DNA from: a virus
DNA: 25,662 nucleotides
IMG/VR virus record: IMGVR_UViG_3300020196_000215
Location: 1-25,662 of that record
Strand: one strand, 5' to 3'
Shown here: positions 1-25,605 of the stretch, piece by piece
How the letters are laid out: each line of letters starts with the position of its first letter
Numbering within the stretch: the first letter of the stretch is position 1
Program-made: the position numbers and the translations under genes
Notes under the pieces: model-generated
What the model saw: the letters and a program-made list of their open reading frames with translations, nothing else
Databases searched by the model: none
What the model was told of the DNA's origin: nothing

Positions 1-515
1 TGTTTAATCTGACCCTTTCTTCATCTTTTCGTAGTTATGAACAACAAAATTATCTTTATCAATTGTATCTTAAGGGACAGGGGAATCTTGCTGCTCCGCC
101 TGGTAGGTCTAATCATGAAAAGGGTCTCGCCATTGATGTTGCTAATGGTATTCCTTGGGTTCAAAAGTATGGGTCAAAATTTGGATGGATAAACACAGGT
201 ATGGGATTTTCTCAAAAAGAACCATGGCATTTCGACTTCAAGGGTTCTGTTTCTCCATCTGCTACACAAGAACAAACAACACCTACACCTGCAGCGATTC
301 AAAGACCATCAACCTCGACGGTAAATGTTGCAACTGAAAGACGGGGAGAAAACTATGTAGTAGTTGATCAAAGAAGTCCAAGAGTAAATACTAGTAGACA
401 AAATAATTATGGTTCTTCAGGAAGTTCAGGAGGCAATATTCGTGAGGAAGATTTGGCAGTCGCATTTATGAATAACATGAAAAAAAGATTGATGAATGAT
501 TTAGCATATGTATAG
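1..515 (+). CDS. M15/VanY-type peptidoglycan peptidase, 5'-truncated by window edge
   Basis: The frame is open from base 3, so the gene begins upstream of the window; the internal TTG at 63 is not a credible start. The visible protein opens with an SSFRSYEQQ segment followed by SNHEKGLAID and, about 40 residues later, EPWHFD. These are the H-x6-D and E-x-W-H zinc and catalytic signatures of the VanY/M15 D-Ala-D-Ala carboxypeptidase or endopeptidase family, so it probably cuts peptidoglycan stem peptides. After the catalytic domain comes a low-complexity Thr/Pro/Ser/Gly linker of about 70 residues, then a short helical C-terminus ending MKKRLMNDLAYV. The next gene ends in a very similar peptide. 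Only 12 bases separate it from the next start. Position beside the baseplate hub genes suggests a tail-associated lysin rather than a holin/endolysin-system enzyme; that location is inferred. Confidence 0.85.
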   Translation, partial: FNLTLSSSFRSYEQQNYLYQLYLKGQGNLAAPPGRSNHEKGLAIDVANGIPWVQKYGSKFGWINTGMGFSQKEPWHFDFKGSVSPSATQEQTTPTPAAIQRPSTSTVNVATERRGENYVVVDQRSPRVNTSRQNNYGSSGSSGGNIREEDLAVAFMNNMKKRLMNDLAYV

Positions 516-527
516 CAGTAAAAGAAA

Positions 528-6126: not shown

Positions 6127-6133
6127 CTAAATA
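6127..6133 (+). promoter_or_regulatory. Candidate late promoter, CTAAATA
   Basis: CTAAATA starts directly after the gp5-like stop codon and lies 34 bases before the next ATG, in one of the two longest gaps of the structural cluster (41 bases). It resembles the T4-type late promoter box TATAAATA. The same heptamer also occurs by chance inside genes of this AT-rich sequence, for example near 13403 and 23570, so the call is weak. Confidence 0.3.
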
Positions 6134-6167
6134 GAAAATAGAAAGAATTTATTTTTGATTTATATTC

Positions 6168-6941
6168 ATGTCAAGATCAAATCAAAACTGGGAAGCTAGA
6201 GATATTTGGGCAATGCCTACTTTTAGGATTGATACTTCCACGCCACAAATGGGGGCAAATGGGTCTTTGGCATATGCGATGTATAGTTTCAATTCTAGTA
6301 ATGATGTAAATCTTACTGGTCTTACCGAAGGGGGGTCATACAGAATTTACAACGATAGATTTATCGAAATTGTAGCAGGAAATAAAACATCTGAAAAAGG
6401 TGTTGACATTGTTATTACTTCGATGGCTGGAGATGTTACAATTACTGCACTACGTAATGGATCTATTAGAATCAAAGGAAAAAATATAACAATTGAAGCT
6501 GATGAGGATGTAGATATAAAAGCAGGAAGAAATATCAGCATGAAAGGTGGTGCTGGAAGAATATTGTTAGACTCTAATATTGTTGATGCTAAGGGATTGT
6601 CTGGAAATGTTATATCAAAAGTGGAGGGTGGAACTTTTGGTACGAAAGTATTTGATGGAACTTATGTTGCTAAAGATGTTCTTGAAAAAGCAATGGCTGC
6701 GTTACCAAATATTCCAGTAACTGGTAATAACGTTGATGCGACTACAACAAGTAAACCTTGTATTCCATCTTCTGGAATTTCGACTACTGGAATTTCGACT
6801 AGTCGTTCCACTGCTAGTGCCACTGCTAGTACCACTGCTAGTACCACTGCAGGTCTTGATGCTGAATTGAGTCGTCCAATTACAAATGAGGAACGAGCTC
6901 AAGTAAGGAGTAATACTGTTCCTGGTGTCACTATCCTATAG
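6168..6941 (+). CDS. Small beta-helical virion protein, candidate separate gp5-type needle
   Basis: 257 residues. After an unrecognised N-terminal region (about 1-75), residues 78-150 have a strict alternation of hydrophobic residues with Gly/Asn/Asp turns: DIVITSMAGDVTITALRNG, then IRIKGKNITIEADEDVD, then IKAGRNISMKGGAG. This closely resembles the V-x-G-x-x-x-x-x strands of the gp5/VgrG triple-stranded beta-helix needle. In T4 that needle is the C-terminal part of gp5; here the gp5-like gene just upstream lacks it, so a separately encoded needle is a reasonable inference. The C-terminal 60 residues are Ser/Thr/Ala-rich and built on short DNA repeats. I see no PAAR tip domain. No strong ribosome-binding site precedes the ATG. 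It could instead be another spike-associated structural protein. Confidence 0.65.
   Translation: MSRSNQNWEARDIWAMPTFRIDTSTPQMGANGSLAYAMYSFNSSNDVNLTGLTEGGSYRIYNDRFIEIVAGNKTSEKGVDIVITSMAGDVTITALRNGSIRIKGKNITIEADEDVDIKAGRNISMKGGAGRILLDSNIVDAKGLSGNVISKVEGGTFGTKVFDGTYVAKDVLEKAMAALPNIPVTGNNVDATTTSKPCIPSSGISTTGISTSRSTASATASTTASTTAGLDAELSRPITNEERAQVRSNTVPGVTIL
6808..6850 (+). repeat. 12-bp in-frame minisatellite, about 3.6 copies
   Basis: Three 12-base units at 6808-6819, 6820-6831 and 6832-6843 (CCACTGCTAGTG/A) and a partial fourth encode a Ser/Thr/Ala tract near the C-terminus of the beta-helical protein. Just upstream, ACTGGAATTTCGACT-type 15-base units occur twice (about 6772-6801). Being in frame, copy changes would alter only the length of the linker. 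Confidence 0.9.
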
Positions 6942-6951
6942 GTAAAATCAC

Positions 6952-9900
6952 ATGCCAGCACCAGAAAATAGATTTATAGTTGGCGAAGAGGCGTGGTTTT
7001 ATCAGAATGCTAAGTTTTTCCAACAAATAGAGGCAGAACTTTTCAAAGGTGACATACAATCACCAGAGAATTCTACATTTAATAATGTAAGAATTAATGG
7101 TGGAATTTATGATTCTGCAAATTTTTCTGGTAATATTGGTGATCTTGTTTTATCTGACGGTAATGGGGGTTGGTTTTGGGGTAATGTTGGATATGGAACA
7201 GAACTTCAGGCTGCGAAGTTTAGAAAAACTTCTCTCACTGAAGATATCAATGTAACTTATGCGAATAGAGTTCCTATTCGATTTGATTCTGAAGTCTATA
7301 AAACTGACTTTTTTACGCATTCTAATACAACTATACCCCAAAGAATAACTATCAATAATAATGGTATTTACATTATCAATATCAATATTGGTATTGATAA
7401 CACTGGTGCGGCAGAGGTAAATCCAATATGCTCTATTTTCCTAAATGGAGTTGAAGTTACACAAACAAGAACCACTACCTACAGTGGTGGAACAGCAGCA
7501 GGAAATGGTAAAAACTTACAGATTGCAACACAAGCATTAATAAATGCTGGAGACTATATTGAAGTTTATGCCTGGATGGACCAGGCAGATCAAGCAACAC
7601 CAGTCAACACAATTGTCAATGCTACTGAGTTTTCAATTCTCAAAGCTGCTACTAGAGGACCTCAGGGTGTTCAAGGATTGCAAGGAGTTCAAGCAACTCA
7701 AGGTCTTCAAGGTAATCAAGGTCTTCAAGGTGCTCAAGCAACACAAGGTGGTCAGGGTCTTGCTAACCAGGGTATTCAAGGTCTTCAAGGTCTTCAAGGT
7801 CTTCAAGGAACTCAGGGTGTTCAAGGAACTCAAGGTGTCCAGGGACCTCTCAGTAACTTTCAAGGAACACAAGCAACCCAGGGGAATCAAGGTCTTCAGG
7901 GTCTTCAGGGGACATCAGTTCAGGGTACACAAGGTTTACAAGGTACACAAGGTCTTCAAGGTGGACAAGGAACTCAGGGTCTTGCTAATCAAGGTGTTCA
8001 AGGAACGCAAGGTCTTCAAGGTCTTCAAGGAGATCAGGGTGTTCAAGGAACTCAGGGACTTTCTAATCAAGGTGTTCAGGGAACACAAGCAACTCAAGGA
8101 ACTCAAGGTCTACAGGGATCCCAAGGTCTTCAAGGATCTCAAGGTGTTCAAGGTCAACAAGGAACTCAAGGTGATCAAGGTGTTCAAGGCACCATTGGAG
8201 ATCAAGGAACACAAGGTCTTCAAGGTAATCAAGGAACTCAAGGTCTTCAAGGTCTTCAAGGCAATCAAGGAACTCAAGGAACCCAAGGAACTCAAGGTCT
8301 TCAAGGAGATCAGGGTATTCAAGGAACACAAGCAACCCAGGGGATGCAGGGCAATCAGGGTGTTCAAAGCCCACAAGGAACACAGGGTCTTGTAGGACCT
8401 ATTGCTGGTGATCCAAATCAGGTAATATATAAAAACCCACAAAATATACCATCTGGTTCAGAAAACTTCAAGTTTTATGATTATGAATCATTGGTCACAG
8501 TTGGCGAACAAAGTGGTGCTGGTATTGTTAGTGCCACTACTTTTAAGGGTGAGGGCTCGCAACTAACTGGAATTGTTACAAGTGTTATTCCTGGAATTGG
8601 AATTGATATTGAGTCTACACAAGCAAATGGAAAAGGAATTGTAGAAATTACTTCCTACAAACCAGTAGGAAGAACAATCTATGTTTCATTAAACGGTAAT
8701 GATGATAATACTGGGTTGGCAGAAAATCATCCGAAAAGAACAATTAAATCTGCGGCATCGGTAGCTTTATTTGGTGATACAATCAAACCATTTCCAGGAA
8801 CTTATGTTGAAGAGAATCCAATTGTTCTGGCAAAAACAGTTTCTGTTGAAGGGACAGAACTTAGAAACGTGGTGATTACTCCAAAATATCCAGAGAGAGA
8901 TTTATTTTATGTTAATAGCGGTTGTCACGTTACAGATGTTAGTTTTAGAGGACAACCTTCAACAAATGGGGCTGCTATCGTTGCCTTACAACCACTATTA
9001 GGACCATCATCAGATAGATATTTTGATGCTGCAAGATTGCTTCGTTTCAATCTTGATTATATTGCAAGAGAATCTGTTGGATTCTTAACCAGTGGATTTA
9101 GTGGATTTGCAGGAAGTCATCGTGAACAAGATGCAGCAAGACTTCTTGATTTGAATACTGGATTTATTGCAGCAGAAGCAGTTGGATTCTTGACATCTCC
9201 ATCAGGATATAATTTTAATTTGAATAGTAATGATTATACAAACTGTAAAGAAGACGTTGTAAGTATTATAGATGCTGTCGCTAAAGATTTGAAAGCAAAC
9301 AGTAATAGAAATTCAATAGGTGCTGGATTTTCTTACTATAATAATTCTGGTGGATTGATTCACATTACTGGGATTGCAACCCAACAGGCTACAATTGCTG
9401 CGTTTGATTATGCTATAGGAATTGCAACTCATGTTATTAATAACTTGACCCCACCAATTTCATACCAGTCTGGTGTTGGGAGCATAACTCAATTCAAAGA
9501 TCTATCAGTTATTCAAGTTGCGGGTGGTTGTGTTGGTGTTGGAACTACAATCAGACAACTTGTTGGAATTATAACAAGTATGATTGGTATTGGAACAACT
9601 GCGGCTCCTGCAATTCGTTATGGTGTTAATCTAGATTCTATTGATTGTGCCGATGATATCAAAGACATTTATAAAGCAGTTTCTTTTGATATTACAAGAG
9701 GTGGTAATGCAAAATGTGTTGGGGCTGCAAAGTCATATTTTAATGATGACTTCAATTTCATTCCTAACACACTCAAAAATCCCGAAGAAGTTAAGCAGAC
9801 AGTTGCTACCCTTGACTATTCATTTAATATTGCAAGAGCGGTTGTAAACAACTGCACATGGGGTGGATACCCAGTAGGTCTTGGAACAACGGTTGTTAAT

Positions 9901-12900
9901 GCAGTGTATGATGCAAGCACAGGGATAACCACAATTACTGCGAATAATCATGGACTTGTCAAAAATGATGCGGCAAGAATTACTGGGCTGCTCTATGAGT
10001 GTGATAATGGTTCCCCAGGATTTGCAATTACAGTTTCTACCGCAACATATGATAAGACAACTGGTATATCAACAATTACATTGTCTTCTTCTCTAGATAT
10101 CGTATCTGGAGAAAGAGTAAGACTAAATGATCTAGTTTTTATATGCGATAGTGGTGGTGGACCATCAACAGCATCTTATCCTAGTGGTAACCTTGGATAT
10201 GATTTTACAGTTCTTGATGTAATAGAACCACCACCATCACGTCTAAGAAGGTCATCAACTAAATTTACGGTCAAAAATGGTGTTTCAACTCTTGATCACA
10301 CCTATGTTTCTGGAGGAACTGCTAGGAGACTTTATACTCCAGTATTTGGAATTTCTACCGCTTTTTATGATAAACTCACTGGTATCACAACAATTACCAC
10401 TGTCGGGTTGGGGACAACTGTTGGACCACATCTTTTCATTGAACCTAATAAAAAGGTAAAATTAGAAAATCTAGTATTCATTTGTGATAGTGGTGGTGGA
10501 CCTGCAACAGCATATTATCCTAGTGGAAATCTTGGATATGAGTTTAATGTTATCTCAACAAATAATGATCGTTACGTCGATGCCTCTAATCTTATAGAGT
10601 CAAATAAAAATGAAATCATTGATAAATCTTTAGCCGCAATAGCATTATCTTTCCCAGACTTTTATTATCCAAATGATTTACAAACCACTAGATTTTCTAG
10701 ATTCAAAGACTCATATCGCCTCATTCAATTAAATAAACAAGAAATAGTCGGAACTGCTTGGACTAATACTTATAATGTTTATCCAGGAATATCCACAACA
10801 ATGGATAAGTGCAAACGAGATCTTGCATATTTTGTTGATGCAGTTTCAACGGATGTCTTTAGTGGAGGAAATACTTACACAATTCAATTTACTAAAACAT
10901 ATTTCAATTCATCTGGCGCTCCTATTTCTAATGGATTAGTTGGAGAAATAACAGAATCTGTTTATGCATTCAATCAGGCAAGAAACCTGATGAAACTTGC
11001 AATTACTAATAATCTAACTATCACTGATCTTACAATTACTGCTGATCCTGGAACTGGCATTAATACCAGCACAGCATCTTGTGCGGATGTTCAACAGGCA
11101 ATTAATACTTTAGTTTCTATTGCAACCACTGCATTTACCAATGGTTCATTAACTAATGTCAATAAAATTCGTGTGAATAATGGGGTATTTCCTGCAGGAG
11201 AAAATAAGTGTCGTAGGGATTTAGGATTTATTGTTGATGCACTTATTAAGGATGTAAGATATGGGACTAATAAGCATATTCGTGAAGCCACGAGATCTTA
11301 CTTCACCGCCGCTGGTGTCCCAATTTCGGATGGATTGGTTGGAGAAACCGCACAGTCAATTGTCGGGTTCCATTCTGTGAGAGATTATGCAAAACTTGCA
11401 ATTAATAATCAACTCAATAATAGAGACTTAACAATTACGGCTGATCCAAATCCAGGAATCGGAACCACTTCAAATACAAATCCATATTCTTGTGCCGATG
11501 TTCAGTCAAATATCGATAATCTTGTCGGTATCCTTACATCAACTATTGGGATAGGAACTATAGGTCCATCTTTCCCAGATCTTTATGTTTCTAATAAAGT
11601 TAAGGTCAATGTTGGAGTTTCAACTTTAGATCACATTTATGTGACTGGTGGAACCCTCACCGCAAATTATACAACAAAAATCTTCCCAGATGGAACTTTT
11701 AATTACATTTTCCCTGTTAAATCTGTTGTAGGTCCAAACACATTTACTTTTGTTGCAGGTAAAACAGTTCTCCCTCATACTTATGTTTCGGGGGGAACAG
11801 TTGAAAAATATAGAAACTTCCAACCAACATTCACTCAAGTAAAAGACATGTCAATTCAGATTGACGGTCAAACAGGATATAATGATGCTCTCAATTCATG
11901 TAAAAATGTTATTTCTGCAATTCGTTCTTGTGTTGGAGTTGTAACAAGTATTGTTGGACTTGGATCAACAGCACTAAAATCTGGTTCTGTCGTTGTCCCT
12001 GCTTTTGGTGGTAATTCTGGATATGGATTCACAGATATTGTTGGTATAACTAGTGCGATTTATGAGGGGGAAACTGGAAAGACAACAATCACAGCACCTG
12101 GACTGATTGTTAGGGAAGGCGATCCAATTGAACTTAGGGATTTGATATTCTCTTGTACTTCTGGAACAGGGATTGGAACGACAACTCAAAAATTCCCATC
12201 TGGTAAATTTGGATACGAATTTTATGTTGATGAAATTAATTCAGATAATACTTTTGAAATTTATGTTGGTGTATCAACATTAATACATACTTATATCTCT
12301 GGTGGAACAATAATCAATCGTGCAATACCTGTCTCTTTCGCAACGTATGATCACATAACTGGCGTCACAACCATTACAGCACCAGGAGCGTTTGTTGATA
12401 TTGGTGATGTTGTATCTGTTAGAGATCTAGAATTTATTTGCACTAGTGGAGCTGCTACAACAACAATCTATCCTACATCTAATACTGGATATAATTTTGC
12501 GGTAGAGGAAGTCATAGGATATGGGTCAACTTTTGTTATCAATACAGGAATTAACACCATCCCTCATTATTACTTGACTGGTGGCGTTGTTGTTCCTCCT
12601 TACTCAAGAGGAACTGGGCCAATTGATCAGGGACCATATATCAGAAATGCTACCAATTTTATTGCCAATAGTATTGGGCTAAAAGTTGATGGTTTCAACG
12701 CTGAACCTGGAGATAAAGATGATATTGGCGTGACTGGAACAATGTCTGTAGACTCTTATACACAATTTAATCAAGGTGGTATTGGAGTATCAGTTACAAA
12801 CGGAGCATATGCTCAATTAGTTTCTATTTTTACAATCTGTGACGATATTGGAATCTTTACTAAATCTGGAGGACAATGTGATATTACCAACTCAAACTGC

Positions 12901-13728
12901 TCATTTGGCAACTTTGGTCTTGTCTCTGATGGTGTTGGTGATGCGACTTCAAAATCAATTTATCGTTATACCGCTCAATCCGTAGGAGAAGCGCAAATTG
13001 AAACTGATGAAATAGTTGTTTCTGGTGTTGGCACTTATAGACCTTACGATGGACAGGCAATTTATTTTGGTGATCTTTATAATACAGTATCTCGTATCGA
13101 GGTAACAAATGGTGGAAGTGGATATCTTTTCCCACCAGATGTAATAATCAGCGCCCCAACTGGTCCAAATGGAATTACTGCGGAGGGAAGTGCAAACATT
13201 GATGCGACAGGAACAGTAATATCGGTTGATGTAATTAGTTCTGGATCTCAATATTCAACACCACCAACAGTTACATTTTCTCCAATTGGTGGAGTTGGTA
13301 GCGGTGCTGCTGCAATATCATTTTTAGAACCAATTTATTTTAATATTCAAAGTGCAACACTTCCTGTTGCAGGAATCTCAACCATCACTCTATTATCAAA
13401 TCTAAATAGTACGATAGGTGCTGGTACAACAATTTATTTCTCAAGATTGAGTTTGCAAATTGCAACTTCAATCTCACTAGAATGGGTTGGATCTGGAACA
13501 AATATTAATACAGCAAAACCATCTCTGGGTGGAGTTACAATTCAACCAAATGAAGTTGATAAAATTAGAGGTGGACAAGTTGTATATACCAGTACAAACC
13601 AAGCAGGTAACTTCCAAATTGGAGATAATGTAGTTATTAACCAACTTACAGGAACAATTTCAGGTAGAGCCTTTAGTCAAAGTCTGTTAAATACAGTAAC
13701 TCCTCTCATTATTGCGTTAGGTAAGTAA
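6952..13728 (+). CDS. Giant modular virion structural protein with C1q-like and collagen-like regions
   Basis: 2258 residues. Residues 1-80 (VGEEAWFYQNAKFFQQIEAE, then NNVRINGGIYDSANFSG) look like a baseplate-attachment domain. About 85-234 resembles a C1q/TNF-like jelly roll (GIYIININIGI, SIFLNGVEV, AGDYIEVYAW). 236-483 is a Gly-X-Gln collagen-like stalk. From about 580, YVSLNGNDDNTGLAENHPKR and TIKSAASVALFGDTI resemble the start of a DUF1565-type right-handed beta-helix. About 690-1885 alternates helical and beta modules (separate entry). The last 360 residues contain two G-x-Y-x-x-P-P beta motifs and end with NQLTGTISGRAFSQSL, which I recall from cyanomyovirus structural proteins. Some relatives are annotated VrlC-like or simply virion structural protein; I do not assign a symbol. 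It is 10 bases after the beta-helical gene. It probably forms a long baseplate- or tail-attached fibre for surface contact. Confidence 0.75.
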   Translation: MPAPENRFIVGEEAWFYQNAKFFQQIEAELFKGDIQSPENSTFNNVRINGGIYDSANFSGNIGDLVLSDGNGGWFWGNVGYGTELQAAKFRKTSLTEDINVTYANRVPIRFDSEVYKTDFFTHSNTTIPQRITINNNGIYIININIGIDNTGAAEVNPICSIFLNGVEVTQTRTTTYSGGTAAGNGKNLQIATQALINAGDYIEVYAWMDQADQATPVNTIVNATEFSILKAATRGPQGVQGLQGVQATQGLQGNQGLQGAQATQGGQGLANQGIQGLQGLQGLQGTQGVQGTQGVQGPLSNFQGTQATQGNQGLQGLQGTSVQGTQGLQGTQGLQGGQGTQGLANQGVQGTQGLQGLQGDQGVQGTQGLSNQGVQGTQATQGTQGLQGSQGLQGSQGVQGQQGTQGDQGVQGTIGDQGTQGLQGNQGTQGLQGLQGNQGTQGTQGTQGLQGDQGIQGTQATQGMQGNQGVQSPQGTQGLVGPIAGDPNQVIYKNPQNIPSGSENFKFYDYESLVTVGEQSGAGIVSATTFKGEGSQLTGIVTSVIPGIGIDIESTQANGKGIVEITSYKPVGRTIYVSLNGNDDNTGLAENHPKRTIKSAASVALFGDTIKPFPGTYVEENPIVLAKTVSVEGTELRNVVITPKYPERDLFYVNSGCHVTDVSFRGQPSTNGAAIVALQPLLGPSSDRYFDAARLLRFNLDYIARESVGFLTSGFSGFAGSHREQDAARLLDLNTGFIAAEAVGFLTSPSGYNFNLNSNDYTNCKEDVVSIIDAVAKDLKANSNRNSIGAGFSYYNNSGGLIHITGIATQQATIAAFDYAIGIATHVINNLTPPISYQSGVGSITQFKDLSVIQVAGGCVGVGTTIRQLVGIITSMIGIGTTAAPAIRYGVNLDSIDCADDIKDIYKAVSFDITRGGNAKCVGAAKSYFNDDFNFIPNTLKNPEEVKQTVATLDYSFNIARAVVNNCTWGGYPVGLGTTVVNAVYDASTGITTITANNHGLVKNDAARITGLLYECDNGSPGFAITVSTATYDKTTGISTITLSSSLDIVSGERVRLNDLVFICDSGGGPSTASYPSGNLGYDFTVLDVIEPPPSRLRRSSTKFTVKNGVSTLDHTYVSGGTARRLYTPVFGISTAFYDKLTGITTITTVGLGTTVGPHLFIEPNKKVKLENLVFICDSGGGPATAYYPSGNLGYEFNVISTNNDRYVDASNLIESNKNEIIDKSLAAIALSFPDFYYPNDLQTTRFSRFKDSYRLIQLNKQEIVGTAWTNTYNVYPGISTTMDKCKRDLAYFVDAVSTDVFSGGNTYTIQFTKTYFNSSGAPISNGLVGEITESVYAFNQARNLMKLAITNNLTITDLTITADPGTGINTSTASCADVQQAINTLVSIATTAFTNGSLTNVNKIRVNNGVFPAGENKCRRDLGFIVDALIKDVRYGTNKHIREATRSYFTAAGVPISDGLVGETAQSIVGFHSVRDYAKLAINNQLNNRDLTITADPNPGIGTTSNTNPYSCADVQSNIDNLVGILTSTIGIGTIGPSFPDLYVSNKVKVNVGVSTLDHIYVTGGTLTANYTTKIFPDGTFNYIFPVKSVVGPNTFTFVAGKTVLPHTYVSGGTVEKYRNFQPTFTQVKDMSIQIDGQTGYNDALNSCKNVISAIRSCVGVVTSIVGLGSTALKSGSVVVPAFGGNSGYGFTDIVGITSAIYEGETGKTTITAPGLIVREGDPIELRDLIFSCTSGTGIGTTTQKFPSGKFGYEFYVDEINSDNTFEIYVGVSTLIHTYISGGTIINRAIPVSFATYDHITGVTTITAPGAFVDIGDVVSVRDLEFICTSGAATTTIYPTSNTGYNFAVEEVIGYGSTFVINTGINTIPHYYLTGGVVVPPYSRGTGPIDQGPYIRNATNFIANSIGLKVDGFNAEPGDKDDIGVTGTMSVDSYTQFNQGGIGVSVTNGAYAQLVSIFTICDDIGIFTKSGGQCDITNSNCSFGNFGLVSDGVGDATSKSIYRYTAQSVGEAQIETDEIVVSGVGTYRPYDGQAIYFGDLYNTVSRIEVTNGGSGYLFPPDVIISAPTGPNGITAEGSANIDATGTVISVDVISSGSQYSTPPTVTFSPIGGVGSGAAAISFLEPIYFNIQSATLPVAGISTITLLSNLNSTIGAGTTIYFSRLSLQIATSISLEWVGSGTNINTAKPSLGGVTIQPNEVDKIRGGQVVYTSTNQAGNFQIGDNVVINQLTGTISGRAFSQSLLNTVTPLIIALGK
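7657..8400 (+). repeat. Collagen-like Gly-X-Gln array, short copy (about 80 triplets)
   Basis: Nine-base units encode Gly-X-Gln, with X mostly Leu, Thr, Val, Ile, Asn or Asp. They occupy residues 236-483 of the 2258-residue protein. Phase is broken by GLANQ and GLSNQ inserts, a PLSNF segment, and triplets in which Ala replaces Gly (QATQG). The composition matches the much longer array in the gene at 14090, so the two stalks share an origin. Confidence 0.95.
9019..12600 (+). repeat. Alternating alpha and beta protein modules within the giant structural gene
   Basis: Two module types recur. The beta module follows a YDxxTGxTTIT strand, a D/N-L-x-F-x-C-x-S-G core, YPSGNLGY-F and VSTLDHTYVSGGT. 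Copies or partial copies lie at about 9891-10035, 10036-10320, 10342-10560, 11575-11815, 12043-12325 and 12331-12600. The helical module has C-(K/R)-R-D-L-x-F-x-VDA, a short S-G-G-N or Y-G-T-N turn, then a Y-F-x-x-x-G-x-P-I-S-(N/D)-G-L-VGE segment and a SCADVQ helix. Clearest copies lie at about 10798-11140 and 11194-11565, with more diverged ones at about 9019-9460, 9628-9855 and 11860-11975. The copies differ enough that they are old protein-level duplications, not recent DNA repeats. Boundaries are approximate. Confidence 0.75.
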
Positions 13729-14089: not shown

Positions 14090-17000
14090 ATGGCAAGATA
14101 TACCTCAGGAAGATATAGAAGATTTTCTCAGTCTGGTATTACCTCTGACAGATATGAATTTCTGGGTGTAGAGCAAGCTGAGCCAGATTTGGGGGATCCT
14201 CTTGTAGGTGTATCTTCTATTGGGGTAAAACCAGTTCCTAATGGCACATTTTATGATCAATATGTTCTAATTGCAGTTGGTACTGAGGTTGGTTCTCGTT
14301 ATTGGATAAAGTCTGAAAATTTATTCAGTCAGGGTATCCAAGGTATACAGGGTACGCAAGGTAATCAAGGTATTCAAGGCACTCAGGGTCTACAGGGTCA
14401 GGCGATACAAGGTGTACAAGGAAATCAAAGCACCCAAGGACTACAGGGTATTCAGGGTGAAACTTTTCAGGGAACACAAGGAACTCAGGGAATCCAAGGC
14501 ACTCAAGGGACCCAAGGTCTTCAAGGTCTCCAAGGTCTACAGGGTCTGAGTAATCAGGGCGTTCAGGGTACTCAAGGACTTCAAGGAGATGTTGGTATTC
14601 AGGGTGCCCAAGGTGTCCAAGGTCTTAGTAATCAAGGTGTACAAGGAACTCAAGGTCTTCAAGGTGATCAGGGTATACAGGGTACGCAAGGTGTCGGTTC
14701 TCAGGGTTCTCAGGGTGTTCAAGGTCTAAGTAATCAGGGTGTTCAAGGTGCTCAGGGAACTCAAGGTGTTCAAGGTGAACTTGGATATCAGGGTACACAG
14801 GGTAATCAAGGTATTCAAGGCACTCAAGGATTACAAGGTATTCAAGGTGAACTTGGATATCAGGGTACACAGGGTAATCAAGGTATTCAAGGCACTCAAG
14901 GATTACAAGGTATTCAAGGTGAACTTGGATATCAAGGAACTCAAGGTCTTCAAGGTCTACAGGGATTCCAGGGCACCCAAGGTTTACAAGGTATTCAAGG
15001 TTCTGGTGTTCAAGGTGTTCAAGGAACTCAAGGACTACAGGGATTCCAGGGCACCCAGGGTCTGCAAGGTGTCCAGGGGATGCAGGGGAATCAGGGTCTT
15101 CAAGGATTCCAAGGGACTCAGGGGTTACAAGGTCTTCAAGGACTTCAAGGATTAAGCAATCAAGGTGTCCAGGGTACTCAAGGATTACAGGGCACTCAAG
15201 GATTACAGGGTCTACAAGGTCTCTCTAATCAAGGTGTACAAGGTACGCAAGGAACTCAAGGTCTTCAAGGATCTCAAGGAACGGGTGTTCAGGGAACACA
15301 AGGAACTCAAGGTCTACAGGGATTCCAAGGCACCCAAGGTTTACAAGGCATTCAAGGAGATATTGGTAATCAAGGTGTTCAGGGAACACAAGGAACTCAA
15401 GGTCTGCAAGGTATTCAAGGTGCTGGAATACAAGGCAATCAAGGAACTCAAGGTCTACAAGGTCTACAAGGAACTCAAGGTCTGCAAGGTATTCAAGGTG
15501 CTGGAATACAAGGGTCCCAAGGAACCCAAGGATCCCAAGGAACTCAAGGTCTTCAGGGCATTCAGGGACAACTTGGATTTCAAGGTAGTCAGGGAACACA
15601 AGGTCTTCAGGGGTTCCAAGGCACTCAAGGACTTCAAGGGGATGTTGGTGTTCAGGGTACCCAAGGTTTACAAGGTCTTCAAGGAACTCAAGGTCTTCAA
15701 GGTTCTCAGGGTATTGGTGCCCAAGGATCCCAAGGAACTCAAGGTGTTCAGGGGTCCCAAGGCACTCAAGGATTACAAGGAATTCAAGGAGACCTTGGAA
15801 TCCAAGGCACTCAAGGTGTCCAAGGAGATCAAGGTACTCAGGGATTGCAGGGATCTCAAGGAACAGGTGTTCAGGGAACACAAGGAACTCAAGGACTTCA
15901 AGGATTACAAGGATTACAGGGTGTCCAGGGGGATATTGGTAATCAAGGTGTTCAGGGAACACAAGGAACTCAAGGTCTTCAAGGAGATCAGGGTGTTCAA
16001 GGAACTCAGGGCACTCAAGGTTTAAGTAATCAAGGAGCTCAAGGCACTCAAGGATTACAAGGATTACAGGGTGTCCAGGGGGATATTGGTAATCAAGGTG
16101 TTCAAGGTGTTCAAGGGACTCAAGGTCTTCAAGGTCTACAAGGTCTACAAGGTCTTCAGGGTACAGGTGTTCAAGGATTTCAAGGTACTCAAGGATTACA
16201 GGGGACTCAAGGATTACAGGGTTTACAAGGTCTCTCTAATCAAGGTGTTCAGGGAACTCAGGGTCTTCAAGGTATTCAAGGCACTCAAGGATTACAAGGA
16301 TTACAAGGCACCCAAGGTGACTTTGGTGTTCAAGGATTCCAGGGGACCCAAGGATTACAAGGGTTACAAGGCACTCAAGGTGACTTTGGTGTTCAGGGTG
16401 TTCAAGGCGCTCAAGGATTACAAGGATTACAAGGATTACAAGGCACCCAAGGTGACTTTGGTGTTCAGGGCGTTCAAGGAACTCAGGGTCTTCAAGGTAA
16501 TCAAGGAACTCAAGGGTTGCAAGGATTACAAGGCACTCAAGGTGCTGGATTCCAAGGAGCTCAAGGAACTCAAGGGTTACAAGGATTACAGGGCACTCAA
16601 GGTGATCTAGGTGTTCAGGGAACTCAGGGAACTCAGGGAACTCAGGGACTTCAGGGTGTTCAAGGAAATCAGGGATTACAGGGTCTTCAGGGTATTCAAG
16701 GTGTTGGTGCTCAAGGCACTCAAGGCACTCAAGGTCTTCAAGGTCTACAAGGCACTCAAGGTCTTCAAGGTTTACAAGGCACTCAAGCGACTCAGGGTAC
16801 TCAAGCGACTCAAGGTACTCAAGCGACTCAGGGTACTCAAGGATTACAGGGTCTTCAAGGTTCTCAAGGGACTCAGGGTCTACAAGGTCTTCAGGGCACT
16901 CAAGGTGTTGGTGCTCAAGGGACTCAAGGGACTCAAGGTCTCCAAGGTTTACAAGGTCTCCAAGGAACACAGGGAATCCAAGGTACGCAAGGGACTCAAG

Positions 17001-20000
17001 GTCTTCAAGGTCTCCAAGGAACTCAAGGACTTCAAGGTCTACAAGGAACTCAAGGAACAGGAGTACAAGGAACTCAAGGCACTCAAGGTTTACAAGGATT
17101 ACAGGGAACACAAGGATTGCAAGGAGATCAAGGTGTTCAAGGATTGCAAGGATTGCAGGGTGTTCAAAGTACTCAGGGTTTACAAGGTCTTCAAGGAACT
17201 CAAGGAATAGGAGTACAAGGCACTCAAGGTACCCAAGGCACTCAAGGTCTCCAAGGAACTCAAGGACTTCAAGGACTTCAGGGTCTTCAAGGACTTTCTA
17301 ATCAAGGTGTACAGGGGACACAAGGAACTCAAGGACTTCAAGGATCTCAAGGATTACAGGGTGTTCAGGGGGATATTGGATCTCAGGGTCTTCAAGGTAC
17401 ACAAGGTCTTCAAGGTACACAAGGTATTCAGGGCACACAGGGATTAGGAACTCAAGGTAACCAAGGCACTCAAGGTCTTCAGGGTCTTCAAGGTTCTCAA
17501 GGTGTTGGTGCTCAGGGAACTCAGGGAGTTGCTGGTGATCAAGGAACCCAAGGTCTTCAAGGAACTCAAGGTCTTCAAGGTAGACAAGGAACTCAAGGAT
17601 CAATAGGTAGTCAGGGAACTCAAGGAACTTTGGGTATTCAAGGTCTTCAAGGTCTTCAAGGTCTTCAAGGAACTCAAGGTGTTGGTGCTCAAGGTCTTCA
17701 AGGTAATCAAGGAACTCAAGGTCTTCAAGGGATTCAAGGTAACCAAGGTGTTCAAGGTGTAGGTGCTCAAGGTCTACAAGGTCTCCAAGGTCTTCAAGGA
17801 GTTCAGGGATCTGGAAATCAAGGAATTCAAGGGTCTCAAGGAACACAGGGTCTTCAGGGGTCTCAAGGAACTGGAACTCAAGGAAGTCAAGGCACACAAG
17901 GAACTCAGGGTGATCAAGGTGTTACACGATCTGGAACTCAAGGATTACAAGGTCTTCAGGGAACACAAGGAACTCAAGGGACTCAAGGCACTCAAGGAAC
18001 TCAAGGTGCTCAAGGAACCCAAGGTCCTCAAGCAACTCAAGGTCTACAAGGTGTTCAAGGTCTTCAAGGTCTTCAAGGTCTACAAGGTGTTCAAGGTAAT
18101 CAAGGGACACAAGGAATCCAGGGAAATCAAGCAACTCAGGGAACTCAAGGAACTTTGGGTCTTCAAGGTCTTCAAGGTCTTCAAGGTCTTCAAGGAAAAA
18201 GTCTTCAGGGAATTCAAGGAATTCAAGGAACACAGGGTCTTCAAGGTGTTCAGGGCACTCAAGGTGTTGGCGCCCAAGGATTACAAGGAACACAAGGATT
18301 ACAAGGAACACAAGGAACTCAAGGGTTACAAGGATTACAGGGCACTCAAGGTGCTCAAGGAGCCCAAGGAACTCAAGGATCAAGAGGTCTACAAGGCAAT
18401 CAAGGTCTTCAAGGTCTACAAGGCACTCAAGGAAATCAGGGAACTCAAGCGACTCAGGGAACTCAAGCGACTCAGGGCACTCAAGGTTTACAGGGTCTAC
18501 AAGGTCTTCAAGGATTAAGTATTCAAGGTATTCAAGGTGCTCAAGCAACACAAGGTGTTCAAGGCACTCAAGGTGTTGGTGCTCAAGGTCTTCAAGGTCT
18601 TCAAGGTCTCCAAGGTATTCAAGGTGGAATCGGTATTCAAGGTACCCAGGGTGTCCAAGGCACTCAAAGTGCTCAAGGAACTCAAGGTCTTCAAGGTGTT
18701 CAAGGAACTCAAGGTCTACAAGGTCTACAAGGAACTCAAGGTGTTCAAGGCACTCAAGGTGCTCAAGGGACTCAAGCAACTCAAGGAACACAAGCAACCC
18801 AAGGCACCCAAGGTGTTCAGGGTCTTCAAGGTAATCAAGGCACTCAAGGGATTCAAGGCAACCAAGGTGTTCAAGGTATAGGTGTTCAAGGCACTCAAGG
18901 CACTCAAGGTTTACAAGGTATTCAAGGATCTGGAATTCAAGGTTTACAAGGTCTCCAGGGACTTCAGGGAATTCAGGGTGTTCAAGGTTTAAGTAATCAA
19001 GGAGCACAAGGTCTCCAAGGACTTCAGGGTAATCAGGGTATTCAGGGCGTTAGTTTACAAGGTCTTCAAGGAACACAAGCAACTCAAGGAACCCAAGGTA
19101 TCCAAGGCACTCAAAGTGCTCAAGGAACTCAAGGTCTTCAAGGTATACAAGGATTAATAGGTCTTCAAGGTGTTCAAGGAACTCAAGGTCTCCAAGGTAA
19201 TCAAGGAACTCAGGGAACTCAAGGTCTCCAAGGTAATCAAGGAACCCAAGGTCTTCAAGGAACTCAAGGTCTTCAAGGCAGACAAGGAACTCAAGGAACT
19301 CAAGGGCTTCAAGGCAATCAAGGAACTCAAGGTGTTCAAGGTGTTGGCGCACAAGGATTACAAGGAACTCAAGGTGTTGGTGCTCAAGGAACCCAAGGAA
19401 CTCAAGGTTTACAGGGTCTTCAGGGAGTTCAGGGAACTCAAGGTTTACAAGGTATTCAAGGATCAGGAATTCAAGGATTACAAGGAGTCCAAGGCACTCA
19501 AGGCTTACAGGGTCTTCAAGGAACTCAAGGTGCTCAAGGGACTCAAGCGACTCAGGGCACTCAAGGATTACAGGGTCTTCTAGGTGTTCAAGGAACTCAA
19601 GGTCTACAAGGTCTACAAGGAACTCAAGGTAATCAAGGTCTTCAAGGCACTCAAGGTCTTCAAGGTAGACAAGGAACTCAAGGAACTCAAGGAACTCAGG
19701 GGCTCCAGGGGACTCAAGGTTTACAAGGGGTAGGCATACAAGGTCTTCAAGGCAATCAAGGAACCCAAGGTCTTCAAGCAACTCAAGGGACTCAAGGGAC
19801 TCAAGGTGCTCAGGGAACTCAAGGCAATCAAGGTATTCAAGGATCTGGTTCTCAAGGAGCTCAAGGCACTCAAGGGACTCAAGGTCTACAAGGTCTACAA
19901 GGTCTTCAAGGAAATCAAGGTGTTCAAGGAACTCAAGGTCTTCAAGGTAGACAAGGAACTCAAGCAACTCAGGGACTCCAGGGGACTCAAGGTTTACAAG

Positions 20001-22300
20001 GCAATCAAGGAACACAAGCAACCCAAGGTCTTCAAGGCAATCAAGGAACTCAAGGTCTACAAGGTCTACAAGGAACTCAAGGTCTACAAGGTCTACAAGG
20101 AACTCAAGGTAATCAAGGTATTCAAGGATCTGGTTCTCAAGGTCTTCAAGGTCTTCAAGGTAATCAAGGTACTCAAGGAACAGGGGTACAAGGTACTCAA
20201 GGCACTCAAGGCACTCAAGGAACTCAGGGTGTTCAAGCAACACAAGGTGTTCAAGGAACCCAAGGTCTTGGATTCCAAGGATCACAAGGGACTCAAGGTA
20301 ATCAAGGAACTCAAGGTGTTCAAGGTAGACAAGGAACTCAAGGTGTTCAAGGAACCCAAGGTCCTCAAGCAACTCAAGGTAATCAAGGAACTCAAGGCAC
20401 TCAAGGAACAGGGGTACAAGGAACTCAGGGTCTACAAGGTAGGCAAGGTCTTCAAGGCAATCAAGGAACCCAAGGTGCAACTGCCGCTCAAGGATCTCAA
20501 GGTACTCAAGGTGTTCAGGGTTCGGGTTCTCAAGGTACTCAAGGTCCTCAAGGCACTCAAGGAACTCAGGGTGTTCAAGCAACACAAGGAACCCAAGCTG
20601 TTCAAGGAACCCAAGGTCCTCAAGGGACTCAAGGCGCTCAAGGTGCTCAAGGATTACAAGGATTACAGGGGTTACAAGGCACTCAAGGTAGACAAGGAAC
20701 TCAAGGTGTTGGTCTTCAAGGGACTCAAGGTTCTCAAGGTCTTCAAGGTGCCGCTGGTACAAATGCTGGACAAGGTGCCCAGGGTATGCAAGCAACTCAG
20801 GGGACTCAAGGTCTTCAAGGTAGACAAGGAACTCAGGGATTACAGGGATTAAGTAATCAAGGAATTCAAGGTACTCAAGGTCTTCAAGGTAGACAAGCAA
20901 CCCAAGGTCTTCAAGGCAATCAAGGAACTCAAGGTCTTCAAGGTAGACAAGGAACTCAAGGTGCTCAAGGTACAATAGGATCTCAAGGTCTTAGTGGAAC
21001 ATCTGGTAACCAAGGAGCACAAGGCAGTCAAGGCGTTGGATCTCAAGGTACTGTTGGTTCTCAGGGAACTGTAGGTAGTTTCGGTTCCCAAGGTAATCAA
21101 GGAACTCAGGGCCGCCAGGGCACTACAGGAACGGGAGCTCAAGGTGCAATAGGATCTCAAGGTGCAATAGGAGCTCAAGGTGCAATAGGAGCTCAAGGTA
21201 CAATAGGAAATCAAGGGACTCAAGGTGTTCAAGGTAGACAAGGAACTCAAGGTGTTGGCTCTCAAGGCACTATTGGCGCTCAGGGAACGATAGGTGCTCA
21301 GGCATTCCAAGGAACTCAAGGTGTTCAGGGAAGGCAGAACCAGGGTGTTCAAGGTTCATCCGCTGGACAGGGAACACAAGGTAATCAGGGTCTAGGGGGA
21401 GTTGTTGGTGGACAAGGAACTCAAGGTGTTCAAGGACAAGTCGTAACAACAACACCATCGTCAATTACAAAAACCGTTTTTTCAGCAACAGCTGGACAAA
21501 CAGTGTTTTCGGTCAACTATGGTACACAATATATCCTTGTATATCTTAACGGTTCTCACCTACAAGAAAATGCAGAATACACCGCAACAAATGGAACTTC
21601 GGTTGTACTAACATCTGGTGCATCTGCTGGTGATATTATTGAAGTTGTTTACTTCAACCTTGGAAACTTTGTCAGAGGAATTCAAGGTGTTTCTGGTTCC
21701 TTCGCTGGACAAGGTGTTCAAGGTCTGCAAGGTAGTCAAGGTCCATTTGGTCCTCAAGGTGTTCAAGGTATTGTAGGTGCTCAAGGTTCTACAACAACTC
21801 TGAGTTATGCAGAAGATTCCACATCAGCAACAACTCATTATCCCGTATTCGTTTCTGGTTCTGGAGCTCAAAATGCAAAAGTCAGAACAACGGCAACTGC
21901 ATTCTCGTTCGTTCCAAACACTGGTAATCTAGTTGTACCAGGAACTGTAACTGCAAGTTCTGACAGATCAATCAAGACTCGCATTACTCCTATTGAAAAT
22001 GCACTTGAAAAGGTCAAGAAGTTGAGAGGTGTTGAGTTCAACTATAGATCTCATGGTGGCAAATCAATCGGTCTTATTGCACAAGAACTTGAGGGGGTCT
22101 TCCCCGAACTTGTTCACGGAGAAGGTGTCAAGTCTGTTGCTTACCAAAACTTGGTCGCTGTTCTTATTGAAGCAATAAAAGAAATGAGTGACACAATGGA
22201 TAAGCGTGATATGGCATACCGTAGAATTCTGTCTAGTTTTGATGAAAAACTATCAAATTTTATGAATAAATACGAAAAGAATGATGTAAACGAGGATTGA
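14090..22300 (+). CDS. Giant collagen-like tail fibre with C-terminal S74 chaperone
   Basis: 2736 residues. Residues 1-80 form a compact N-terminal domain ([14 protein letters not shown], then [11 protein letters not shown]), presumably the attachment end. About 81-2450 are Gly-X-Gln triplets. About 2455-2530 is a beta domain ([54 protein letters not shown]) of a type common in phage fibres. A second short Gly-X-Gln run follows to about 2570. From about 2620 comes a peptidase-S74 intramolecular chaperone (separate entry). S74 domains trimerise fibres and then usually cleave themselves off, so the mature fibre would be about 2620 residues. The chains are expected to form a trimeric, very long thin fibre. 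Long stop-free stretches in the other frames of the array are by-products of the nine-base repeat. No strong ribosome-binding site precedes the ATG. Confidence 0.88.
14333..21439 (+). repeat. Collagen-like Gly-X-Gln array, about 790 triplets
   Basis: A 7.1-kb run of nine-base units encodes Gly-X-Gln, with X mostly Leu, Thr, Val, Ile, Asn, Ser or Asp and almost no Pro. Gln uses both CAA and CAG, Gly mostly GGT and GGA, and the X codons vary, so most copies differ silently. Periodic irregularities occur: GLSNQ insertions (about ten), shortened triplets before GAQ, GVQ or GIQ (GVG, GTG, GSG), and Ala in place of Gly (QATQG) in clusters near 16790-16845, 18440-18480 and elsewhere. The last part (about 20950-21440) is more Ile/Ser-rich, with repeated GAQGAIG and GTIG segments. 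Confidence 0.98.
14777..14920 (+). repeat. Perfect 72-bp tandem duplication inside the fibre array
   Basis: Two identical 72-base units lie at 14777-14848 and 14849-14920, each beginning GAACTTGGATAT. A third copy starts at 14921 but diverges after about 14 bases. Most of the array is silently scrambled, so perfect identity over 72 bases indicates a recent in-frame duplication of 24 residues. Confidence 0.95.
21959..22300 (+). other. Peptidase S74 intramolecular chaperone domain of the fibre
   Basis: Residue 2624 starts the motif SDRSIK, matching the S-D-x-x-x-K signature whose Ser and Lys take part in self-cleavage in endosialidase-type fibres. It is followed by [29 protein letters not shown] and [18 protein letters not shown], all typical S74 elements. 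Cleavage before Ser2624 would release about 113 residues. The last 40 residues are charged and helical. Domain boundaries are approximate. Confidence 0.9.
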
Positions 22301-22670: not shown

Positions 22671-23162
22671 ATGAGCACCTTAATTGCAAATACAGTATTA
22701 ACAACTAATATTCAACATACTAATGGTACAATATGTGCCACTATTGATTCTTCTGGAATATTTTTTACTCCAAATACACCTTATTTTCTTGCAACTAGAA
22801 ATGGACAAGGTGATGAAGGTGGTACTGGATATATGTCATTTGGTAATATTTTAGCAAACAGAGGAAATTGGTACAATGCAAATGGAACTGCCACGGCGCC
22901 AGTTACTGGACTTTATGCATTTTGGTGTAAGACTTTAACACCTAGTAATGGTGAAGTTATTGATTTACGATGGTATGTTAATGGAGCATCAACAGATAAT
23001 TATGGTGCAGGATATTCTGGTAATTGGAGTGCACATAAACCCATGATAGCACATTTTATAACTCTTTTGAATGCGAATGATACAGTGAGGGTTTATAATA
23101 TCAATAGCGGAACAAGATGCTGTGGCACCCATAATACATATATGGGATACTTGATTGGATAA
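22671..23162 (+). CDS. C1q-like fibre-tip protein, paralogue A
   Basis: 163 residues. The N-terminus, MSTLIANTVLTTNIQ, is of the type found on small cyanophage tail-fibre proteins and recurs in two neighbours. Residues about 40-163 resemble a C1q/TNF-like jelly roll: GNWYNANGTATAPVTGLYAF matches the F-x-A-P-x-x-G-x-Y strand, NDTVRVYNINSG the late strand, and NTYMGYLIG the closing strand. An unusual vicinal Cys pair (RCCGTH) lies near the end. C1q-like folds are trimeric and often bind sugars or proteins, so this is a plausible receptor-binding tip. The next gene, two bases away, is a close paralogue with short strongly diverged patches. No strong ribosome-binding site is seen. Confidence 0.68.
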   Translation: MSTLIANTVLTTNIQHTNGTICATIDSSGIFFTPNTPYFLATRNGQGDEGGTGYMSFGNILANRGNWYNANGTATAPVTGLYAFWCKTLTPSNGEVIDLRWYVNGASTDNYGAGYSGNWSAHKPMIAHFITLLNANDTVRVYNINSGTRCCGTHNTYMGYLIG

Positions 23163-23649
23163 TTATGGCTTCTGTTGTAAGTGCAAATACATTACAAACA
23201 ACCAATCTTACTGCTAAAGCAATTCCAACTGGATCTGCAATAACACCGTCTTCTGATGGACGGTTGTATCGACCTAATCTTCCTTATTTTATTGCAACTA
23301 GAAATGGACAAGGTGATGAAGGTGGTGGTGGATATATGTCATTTGGTAATATTTTAGCAAACAGAGGAAATTGGTACAATGCAAATGGAACTGCTACTGC
23401 ACCTGAAAAAGGACTTTATGCATTTTGGTGTAAGACTTTAACACCTAGTAATGGTGAAATTGTTGATCTAAGATGGTATATTAATGGAGCATCAACAGAT
23501 AGTTATGGTGCAGGATATTCTGGAAATTTCAGCGGTCATAAAACTATGGAAGCATTTGCTATTTTTGCACTAAATAAAAATGATACAGTGAGGGTTTATA
23601 ATATCAATAGCGGAACAAGATGCTGTGGCACCCATAATACATATATGGG
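22791..23649 (+). repeat. Gene duplication: near-identical DNA blocks at an offset of 503 bp
   Basis: 22791-23022 and 23294-23525 differ by only a few, mostly silent, changes. 23079-23146 is identical to 23582-23649 over 68 bases. Between these blocks, about 55 bases (23023-23078 versus 23526-23581) are strongly diverged, and the 5' ends of the two genes are unrelated apart from the first codons. Confidence 0.95.
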
Positions 23650-23668
23650 TTATCTAATCGGAGGTTGA
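23165..23668 (+). CDS. C1q-like fibre-tip protein, paralogue B
   Basis: 167 residues, paralogue of the preceding gene. The N-terminal 40 residues (MASVVSANTLQTTNL, then TPSSDGRLYRPNLPYF) differ, but from ATRNGQGDEGG onward the two proteins are nearly the same and share the TATAP, GLYAFWCKTLTPSNGE and RCCGTHNTYMGYLIG segments. The main difference in the common region is NFSGHKTMEAFAIFALNKN where paralogue A has NWSAHKPMIAHFITLLNAN, probably an exposed face. As in paralogue A, the fold looks C1q-like. The final codons contain GGAGG (23660-23664), which serves as the ribosome-binding site of the next gene. Confidence 0.68.
   Translation: MASVVSANTLQTTNLTAKAIPTGSAITPSSDGRLYRPNLPYFIATRNGQGDEGGGGYMSFGNILANRGNWYNANGTATAPEKGLYAFWCKTLTPSNGEIVDLRWYINGASTDSYGAGYSGNFSGHKTMEAFAIFALNKNDTVRVYNINSGTRCCGTHNTYMGYLIGG
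23660..23664 (+). promoter_or_regulatory. Shine-Dalgarno GGAGG fixing the start at 23674
   Basis: GGAGG sits nine bases before ATG at 23674. A TTG at 23665 in the same frame directly abuts the motif and is too close to be used, so the 116-residue form starting MEITVIIND is preferred. Confidence 0.85.
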
Positions 23669-24819: not shown

Positions 24820-25605
24820 ATGCCTAATATTGCGAATGATAAAACTATTACATTTTCTGCTGCGGAATTAGCAAGAATTTGCTGTTCGGAAGATTCTCAT
24901 TTGAATAAAAATAATGATGGTGATGATGGTGAAATTGGAAAATATGCAGATCCAAGAAAATCTCCTGATTGGTTAATTGAAGAAATGGTAGATGATTCTA
25001 ATCTTACTAAAATTAAAAGATCTATTTCATCTACAATCAAAAAAAATTCATTGCAAAGTAGAATTTACGGTAAAAGTTCTCAGGGTAATATAAAACAGTA
25101 TAATTTGTTTGGACATATTGATAAAAGTATTACACTTTCATTACAAGAAAAAGTTAGAGATTGTCTAATTGAGCATAATCTAATAAATTCAGATACTTCT
25201 TTGACATTAACAAATTGTTGGACTTGCATTGGTTATAAAAATTCTTACCATATTGCACATAATCATACTTTGACTCGTCCTGGAGGAGCACTCTGCATTG
25301 ATCCTAGAATTATAAGTGTCACACTTTATATTTCTAGTCCACTAAAAGAAGGTGATTGTTCAAATCCAATGAGTGAAAATCATTCAAAAATGCACGACTT
25401 AATTGCTGGATTTTTCTATTTCTTCACCAAACCACATTTGATAAATTATGTAAAACCACAAGTAGGTAAAATGATAATTTTTCCGTCTTGGATAGTTCAT
25501 GGCACTTATCCACAAATTTCTGGAAAAAGACAAACACTAAATCTTTCTTTTGAACTTGATTCCCCACTTTTGGCACCAAAAATAAATTCTGGACAGACCC
25601 CTTGA
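24820..25605 (+). CDS. 2OG-Fe(II) oxygenase family protein
   Basis: 261 residues. The C-terminal half matches the putative 2OG-Fe(II) oxygenase family found in many cyanophages (2OG-FeII_Oxy_5-like): YHIAHNHT with His147 and His149 as candidate iron ligands, VTLYISSP, then VGKMIIFPSWIVHGTYP with the distal His227, and Arg237 in GKRQTLNLSFEL as the likely 2-oxoglutarate contact. The N-terminal 110 residues are less typical, with an acidic NNDGDDGE stretch. Reaction: oxidation of an unknown substrate using O2 and 2-oxoglutarate. Adjacency to collagen-like fibres suggests, but does not show, a structural protein as target; host protein or metabolite modification is equally possible. No strong ribosome-binding site is seen. 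The stop codon lies inside the -35 box of the following promoter. Confidence 0.8.
   Translation: MPNIANDKTITFSAAELARICCSEDSHLNKNNDGDDGEIGKYADPRKSPDWLIEEMVDDSNLTKIKRSISSTIKKNSLQSRIYGKSSQGNIKQYNLFGHIDKSITLSLQEKVRDCLIEHNLINSDTSLTLTNCWTCIGYKNSYHIAHNHTLTRPGGALCIDPRIISVTLYISSPLKEGDCSNPMSENHSKMHDLIAGFFYFFTKPHLINYVKPQVGKMIIFPSWIVHGTYPQISGKRQTLNLSFELDSPLLAPKINSGQTP

Follow-up and report, generated by a model that had tools for sequence, protein, structure and literature searches.

Anatomy of the fibre gene

The window analysed here is the entire virus record IMGVR_UViG_3300020196_000215 of IMG/VR, with 25,662 bases. It contains a predicted tail-fibre gene (14090..22300, plus strand), a single open frame coding for 2,736 amino acids (aa), about 267 kDa per chain, which is also intact in two other contigs, L128 and L129. 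Most of the protein is a collagen-like Gly-X-Gln (GXQ) array of 2,368 aa (14333..21436, plus strand; aa 82-2449), which is matched by the Pfam family PF01391. The array is preceded by an N-terminal domain (14090..14332, plus strand; aa 1-81), presumed to be a docking domain, with a 22-residue consensus core, which we recognized from its homologues and from the PHROG family phrog_8745. Four other elements follow on the same strand: a beta-rich knob, possibly a receptor-binding or tip domain (21437..21676, aa 2450-2529), a second short collagen-like piece (21677..21790, aa 2530-2567), a linker with a beta region ahead of a presumed cleavage site (21791..21958, aa 2568-2623) and a Peptidase_S74 intramolecular chaperone (21959..22297, PF13884), which starts at Ser2624 and has a long C-terminal helix. 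We know of no isolate of this phage.

The original prediction described about 2,370 residues in a G-X-Q register. Its coordinates and length are right, but the register is broken: strict parsing gives 666 GXQ triplets, 22 AXQ triplets and 96 interruptions. Glycine is found at every third residue, mostly in register, with 54 register shifts. The most abundant triplets are GTQ (214), GLQ (191) and GVQ (70). The composition is unusual, with only 4 Pro (0.17%), 1 Lys, 15 Arg, 17 Asp and 4 Glu: charged residues amount to 37 of 2,368 (1.6%). The array thus has almost none of the usual helix stabilizers of the collagen class, imino acids or charge pairs, although these do not strictly define the class.

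Long alternative frames are also found over the array, for example a 641 aa frame on the minus strand (19050-20975). They look like by-products of the repeated codons, not genes.

Reality of the array

The longest strict GXQ run in the fibre protein has 20 triplets, while 1,000 shuffled versions of it have no run above 5, which excludes chance. The pattern is maintained in the protein sequence and no DNA microsatellite is involved, since synonymous codons are mixed much as elsewhere in the window: the proportions of CAA and CAG for Gln are 0.80 and 0.20 in the array, 0.76 and 0.24 in the other genes. The longest exact repeat in the DNA of the array has 94 nucleotides (nt) and all 99-mers are unique, so that the array could be resolved by reads of ordinary length.

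Four contigs, L127 to L130, are near-identical to the window (99.2-99.95%). Two of them, L128 (99.2%) and L129 (99.7%), traverse the whole array and have the same C-terminal sequence at its end, with open reading frames (ORFs) of 2,775 and 2,751 aa. The other two, L127 and L130, stop inside the array. The window does not have 18 + 27 nt which both L128 and L129 contain inside the array, and the array in L128 has a further 72 nt; all these differences are whole triplets. The window, L128 and L129 come from one virus population, so they confirm the length of the array, but they are not independent lineages. A much shorter or collapsed array, which would have counted against the original prediction, is not what these contigs show: the three proteins agree within 39 aa.

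It might be argued that the short-read assembly of a repeat has inflated or rearranged the array. The 45 nt missing from the window, the other 72 nt in L128, the contigs which break off inside the array and some short block substitutions in the window point in this direction. Nevertheless, there is no exact repeat above 94 nt and three contigs of similar length have both unique ends in common, which makes such an artefact extremely improbable. We have rejected it on the basis of exact-repeat length, spanning contigs and whole-triplet indels: the length of the array is not an assembly fluke.

The block substitutions are found at 4923-4925, 10275-10277, 17924-17927 and 22094-22096, where the window differs from every contig of the same population covering the site. 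Three of the four sites are homopolymers in the window, and the substitutions are likely consensus errors. One interruption of the array, GVTRS in the window, reads GVQGS in L128, L129 and L130.

Comparison with other arrays

We have collected at least 120 stretches with a DNA pattern of 12 Gln-Gly steps, together with 64 loci which contain the N-terminal domain. Selection by a GXQ DNA pattern makes this survey incomplete and biased towards GXQ, and many loci are only part of a contig. Among the matches listed there are 347 distinct arrays in 146 loci. The 283 complete arrays have a median of 125 aa, compared with 2,368 aa in the window, which bears out the view that collagen-like stalks in phages are usually far shorter. 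Four listed arrays have at least 1,000 aa: L128, which belongs to this virus, L166 (1,667 aa), L079 (1,275 aa) and L026 (1,029 aa, cut by the end of the locus). Proline is scarce in most of the arrays of this survey: 130 of the 153 distinct arrays with at least 150 aa have less than 2% Pro and 8 have more than 5%. The window array is also about 2.2-2.3 times as long as an animal fibrillar chain (1,056 and 1,028 aa in the chains of the Protein Data Bank, PDB), in agreement with the initial estimate of about twice a human fibrillar chain.

The array in the window is the longest complete single array among the matches listed, yet it is not the extreme case. When 12 records were picked afterwards for their GXQ count, the contig of locus L038 (IMGVR_UViG_3300036770_004472, nt 2-11603, which also includes loci L191 and L192), referred to as G001, reached 983, about four times the value for this virus (245). 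One of its ORFs, which is open at the start of the contig and has at least 3,867 aa, includes an unbroken, proline-free strict run of at least 713 GXQ triplets, which is cut by the end of the contig. Four more collagen blocks, with small domains between them, are found in the same ORF, and its end looks similar to S74 by eye.

Collagen-like phage fibres are already known; this one is unusual in how long it is and how little proline and charge it has. Triple collagen repeats have been noted in structural genes of pelagimyophages and cyanomyophages (PMC7029224). The baseplate fibre FibU of staphylococcal phage 80alpha has a predicted collagen-like part as well, but it covers only about 30 residues (178-208; PMC7048315). 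No description of proline-free Gly-X-Gln phage fibres was recognized in the literature searched, which covers few subscription papers. No long GXQ array was found in the examined stretches of seven phage records (L002-L006, L239 and L240); L003 has 7 GXQ units within a Lys-rich collagen. A 101 aa GXQ piece did not match any phage isolate either, but the low-complexity filter is the probable cause, and this result does not count against such arrays in isolates. Among 37 PDB hits, two of which were inspected as alignments, entry 8zxl has Pro in every second triplet of the aligned sequence; given this and its doubtful nature, it was not used.

The N-terminal domain and shaft exchange

The N-terminal domain has homologues in the tail-fibre proteins of cyanophages P-SSM2, S-PRM1 and S-CAM9 (35-44% identity, 12 records altogether), and residues 1-37 match phrog_8745, tail fiber, with E 2.4e-5. 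Related domains are found at 64 viral loci; an alignment (A2) includes the window and 28 of them. In 28 of the 64 loci the domain is followed by a GXQ shaft in the same ORF (at least 20 GXQ units), while 35 have 0-2 GXQ units and hence either no shaft or one of another type; the ORFs of L169 and L187, which are among the 35, extend beyond their contigs. The remaining locus, L172, is cut before a shaft could begin. Since there are several near-copies among the loci, the counts do not represent independent events.

The closest known proteins to the window fibre, which have the same N-terminal domain and a collagen-like shaft, are PSSM2_023 (P-SSM2), AXN58396.1 (S-PRM1) and AOV60402.1 (S-CAM9), together with phrog_8745. 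P-SSM2 shares the baseplate neighbourhood, S-PRM1 and S-CAM9 share the S74-type end. Nevertheless, their shafts are different. In P-SSM2 the N-terminal domain is followed by a proline-rich Gly-Pro-X collagen; in S-PRM1 and S-CAM9, by beta repeats, KGQKGE and GPT collagen and then the S74-type end. These collagen regions are short and rich in Pro or Lys, with longest unbroken GXX runs of 19 triplets in PSSM2_023 and 59 in the other two, whereas the Gly-X-Gln array in the window extends over 2,368 aa and contains 4 Pro. As judged from these comparisons, the fibre gene is modular: the N-terminal domain is conserved and the shaft is exchanged, proline-rich and Lys-rich collagens included.

A related case is G002 (nt 34818-43464, minus strand), a 2,882 aa frame with the same kind of N-terminal domain and GXQ blocks of 1,093, 332 and 69 aa. 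Its C-terminal end differs by eye, a further sign of module swapping.

The distal end

The knob is matched in 10 loci, two of which (L128 and L129) are from the same virus population, and the order knob, collagen, chaperone recurs in L142 and L133. In the AlphaFold2 (AF2) model the knob appears as strands, with block values of the predicted local distance difference test (pLDDT) of 51-77 over residues 11-80. The match to Peptidase_S74 (PF13884) covers aa 2624-2676, with E 8.3e-14 and 52.1 bits (cut-off 22). Ser2624, Lys2629 and an Asp are invariant in 11 of the 11 tips of alignment A3, which were picked by similarity. A profile built from ten tips matches PDB entries 6f45, 8jov, 7dc3 and 3gud, which are S74-type chains of solved structure, over the S74 part. 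Ser1264 and Lys1269 of phage T5 pb1 have the same five-residue spacing as Ser2624 and Lys2629. A C-terminal trimer chaperone which cleaves itself, with this Ser/Lys spacing, is present in both T5 pb1 and the K1F endosialidase, but their shafts and tips are beta-structured (PMC4690869), unlike the collagen-like shaft in the window. From its sequence, the C-terminus of the fibre is predicted to be a self-cleaving trimer chaperone of the S74 kind.

Fine structure of the shaft

There are 81 breaks between array runs of two or more units: 27 keep the register and 54 shift it. All 54 shifts are of +2 residues (GV, GS, GLSNQ and similar). This rule is not general. We have compared 219 other arrays of at least 100 aa, leaving out the loci of this virus and duplicates with the same first 40 residues. 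Their breaks of up to 12 residues are in register in 788 cases, +2 in 288 and +1 in 258; other phages use both classes, often as G(P/S/A)LSNFQ. A single class of register break has been discarded as a rule for this reason, and it is not taken as proof of a triple helix.

Spacing between breaks is very regular at the start of the array. Its first 789 aa, a boundary picked after viewing the data, contain 33 runs with a mean of 7.2 triplets and a coefficient of variation of 0.31, against 0.75 for random placement; none of 5,000 placements was as regular. From aa 789 to 2200 of the array the spacing is not clearly regular (P ~0.06), and for the whole array P is ~0.013. We have therefore rejected a regular super-repeat through the whole array. 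Taken together, the whole-triplet indels and the quasi-regular segments of 7-8 triplets, which are seen in the N-terminal third, suggest growth of the shaft by duplication of such blocks.

Proposed structure and alternatives

In our opinion, this gene probably codes for a homotrimeric tail fibre of a cyanophage-related T4-like phage, with a docking N-terminal domain, a collagen-like triple-helical shaft and a distal tip, which would work as a flexible tether. The homology of the N-terminal domain, the location of the gene, the match to PF01391 and the S74 end all agree with a collagen-like tail fibre, as initially proposed. In the virion, the N-terminal domain would dock on the baseplate or tail, and the array would form a long, thin, triple-helical shaft, with the beta knob at its far end and the C-terminal S74 chaperone making up the tip. 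The S74 domain would gather three chains, the helix would zip from the C-terminus towards the N-terminus, and the chaperone would then cut itself off at Ser2624. Register breaks may act as hinges, so that the fibre would be a flexible tether enlarging the volume which is searched for the host receptor.

The rise of a collagen helix is 0.29 nm per residue, and its persistence length has been given as 40 and 85 nm. The shaft would thus have a contour of 687 nm, with a root-mean-square reach of 227 or 320 nm respectively. The 0.7 micrometres of the original prediction are acceptable as a contour (about 0.69) but not as a straight line: tens of interruptions make a flexible coil more likely, with a reach of about 0.23-0.32 micrometres. 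The shaft is probably a very long flexible tether, with a usual reach nearer 0.2-0.3 micrometres.

Several results weigh against this interpretation. The AF2 models have low confidence, with a mean pLDDT of 60.5 for the N-terminal domain and 56.3 for the whole tip. Foldseek found nothing at E 0.001 or better with the low-confidence tip model, whose best match is 7dc3, the ICA domain of MyRF (E 1.5e-3), and a phmmer search of the tip alone against PDB chains found none. The match to Pfam Collagen (PF01391), E 1.1e-270 and 874 bits (cut-off 27.2) over 21 stretches, has a score inflated by the repetitive sequence, which affects Pfam and PHROG scores in general. Strongly regular break spacing is limited to the N-terminal third and is not general in other arrays. 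Finally, proline and charge pairs are well-known collagen stabilizers (PMC7824840), and the array is nearly devoid of both.

The main doubt is the fold. The protein might be a tail fibre whose GXQ array does not form a collagen helix in water, but a disordered Gln-rich entropic tether or a bundle of the polyproline-II type. Polyproline-II bundles with Gly at every third residue do exist, as in the snow flea antifreeze protein. The low content of proline and charge and the 54 register breaks would fit such a structure. On the other hand, the same N-terminal domain precedes proline-rich or Lys-rich collagen in related phages, the S74 end belongs to a trimerizing family (PF13884), and the unbroken run of at least 713 triplets in G001 would be needless in a disordered chain. 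We consider this alternative unlikely. It is still less probable that the protein is not a host-binding tail fibre but serves in structure or decoration, as a fibre of the neck or the baseplate skirt or one which binds other surfaces. The docking site of the N-terminal domain is only presumed, collagen-like proteins are also found on capsids (SPP1 gp12, PMC6316719) and neck fibres of about 100 nm are known from Anabaena phage A-1(L) (PMC10966104). On the other hand, tail fibres typically have such a gene neighbourhood and such an S74/knob tip.

Judging from data on other collagens, a helix based on Gln is plausible in cool water. The EPclA prophage fibre has been proven to be a trimer with a genuine collagen helix, and Gln favours the Y position in Escherichia coli prophage collagens (PMC3368898). 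EPclA and EPclB of E. coli O157:H7 are phage fibres with a collagen helix, a C-terminal trimer domain and Gln in Y, as in our case, but they are rich in GPK/GPQ, far smaller (trimer of ~145 kDa) and have other ends; EPclA is also biochemically proven, whereas the window fibre is predicted from its sequence. For recombinant bacterial collagens which lack hydroxyproline, the melting temperatures are 23.5-35.6 degrees C, with a plateau of 36-39 past ~150 residues; they gain stability from pairs of Lys with Glu or Asp (PMC7824840). In Firmicutes collagens, hydration networks are the proposed reason for the abundance of Thr and Gln (PMC8968730). The Gln preference in Y, the hydration networks and the melting data are compatible with a Gln-based helix, but do not prove it.

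We may tentatively suggest, although with some doubt, that phages have a second way of building collagen: an imino-acid-free and nearly charge-free triple helix of more than 700 triplets, which would keep its stability at ambient temperature and serve as a sub-micrometre tether. Proline and hydroxyproline would be replaced by Gln, which takes up nearly all Y positions, with X occupied by Thr, Leu or Val, and the proteins in the window and in G001 would be two extremes of a widespread class. Collagen stability is usually credited to proline, hydroxyproline and charge pairs. All three are lacking here, in an array which occurs in nature and has hundreds of Gly-X-Gln triplets. With such an array it can readily be tested whether Gln in Y is enough to keep a triple helix together, and what length a phage fibre can attain. 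The array also points to very long fibres that search for hosts, as a candidate class in cyanophage-like phages, and to a source of new collagen materials.

Other genes in the window

The fibre gene belongs to a baseplate and fibre module with baseplate hub/tail lysozyme genes around it; P-SSM2 shows the same arrangement. Among the neighbours are further fibre-like genes, a gene for a tail protein (phrog_350) and one for a baseplate hub/tail lysozyme (phrog_1922, E 5e-120). The closest matches to the hub protein are those of S-SKS1, S-SRM01 and P-SSM2 (33-40%). A second, shorter GXQ shaft of 246 aa (7657..8394, plus strand) is found inside the neighbouring 2,258 aa fibre/baseplate protein (6952-13728).

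A gene for a 2OG-Fe(II) oxygenase (PF13759, phrog_81) is found at 24820-25605, near the fibre genes; such genes are likewise near the fibres in S-PRM1 and S-CAM9. We have rejected prolyl hydroxylation of this shaft by the enzyme: all four Pro in the array are in the X position (GPQ), so that there is no Y-position Pro to hydroxylate.

At the end of the baseplate hub protein (3709-6126) there is a tract of (Thr-Pro)n/(Ser-Pro)n, together with a Gly-rich tail (5903-6077); L128 is missing 6 nt there. Two adjacent genes, 22671-23162 and 23165-23668, code for mutually similar small fibre-like proteins, the second of which shows a weak resemblance to C1q (E 7.4e-4, below the cut-off).

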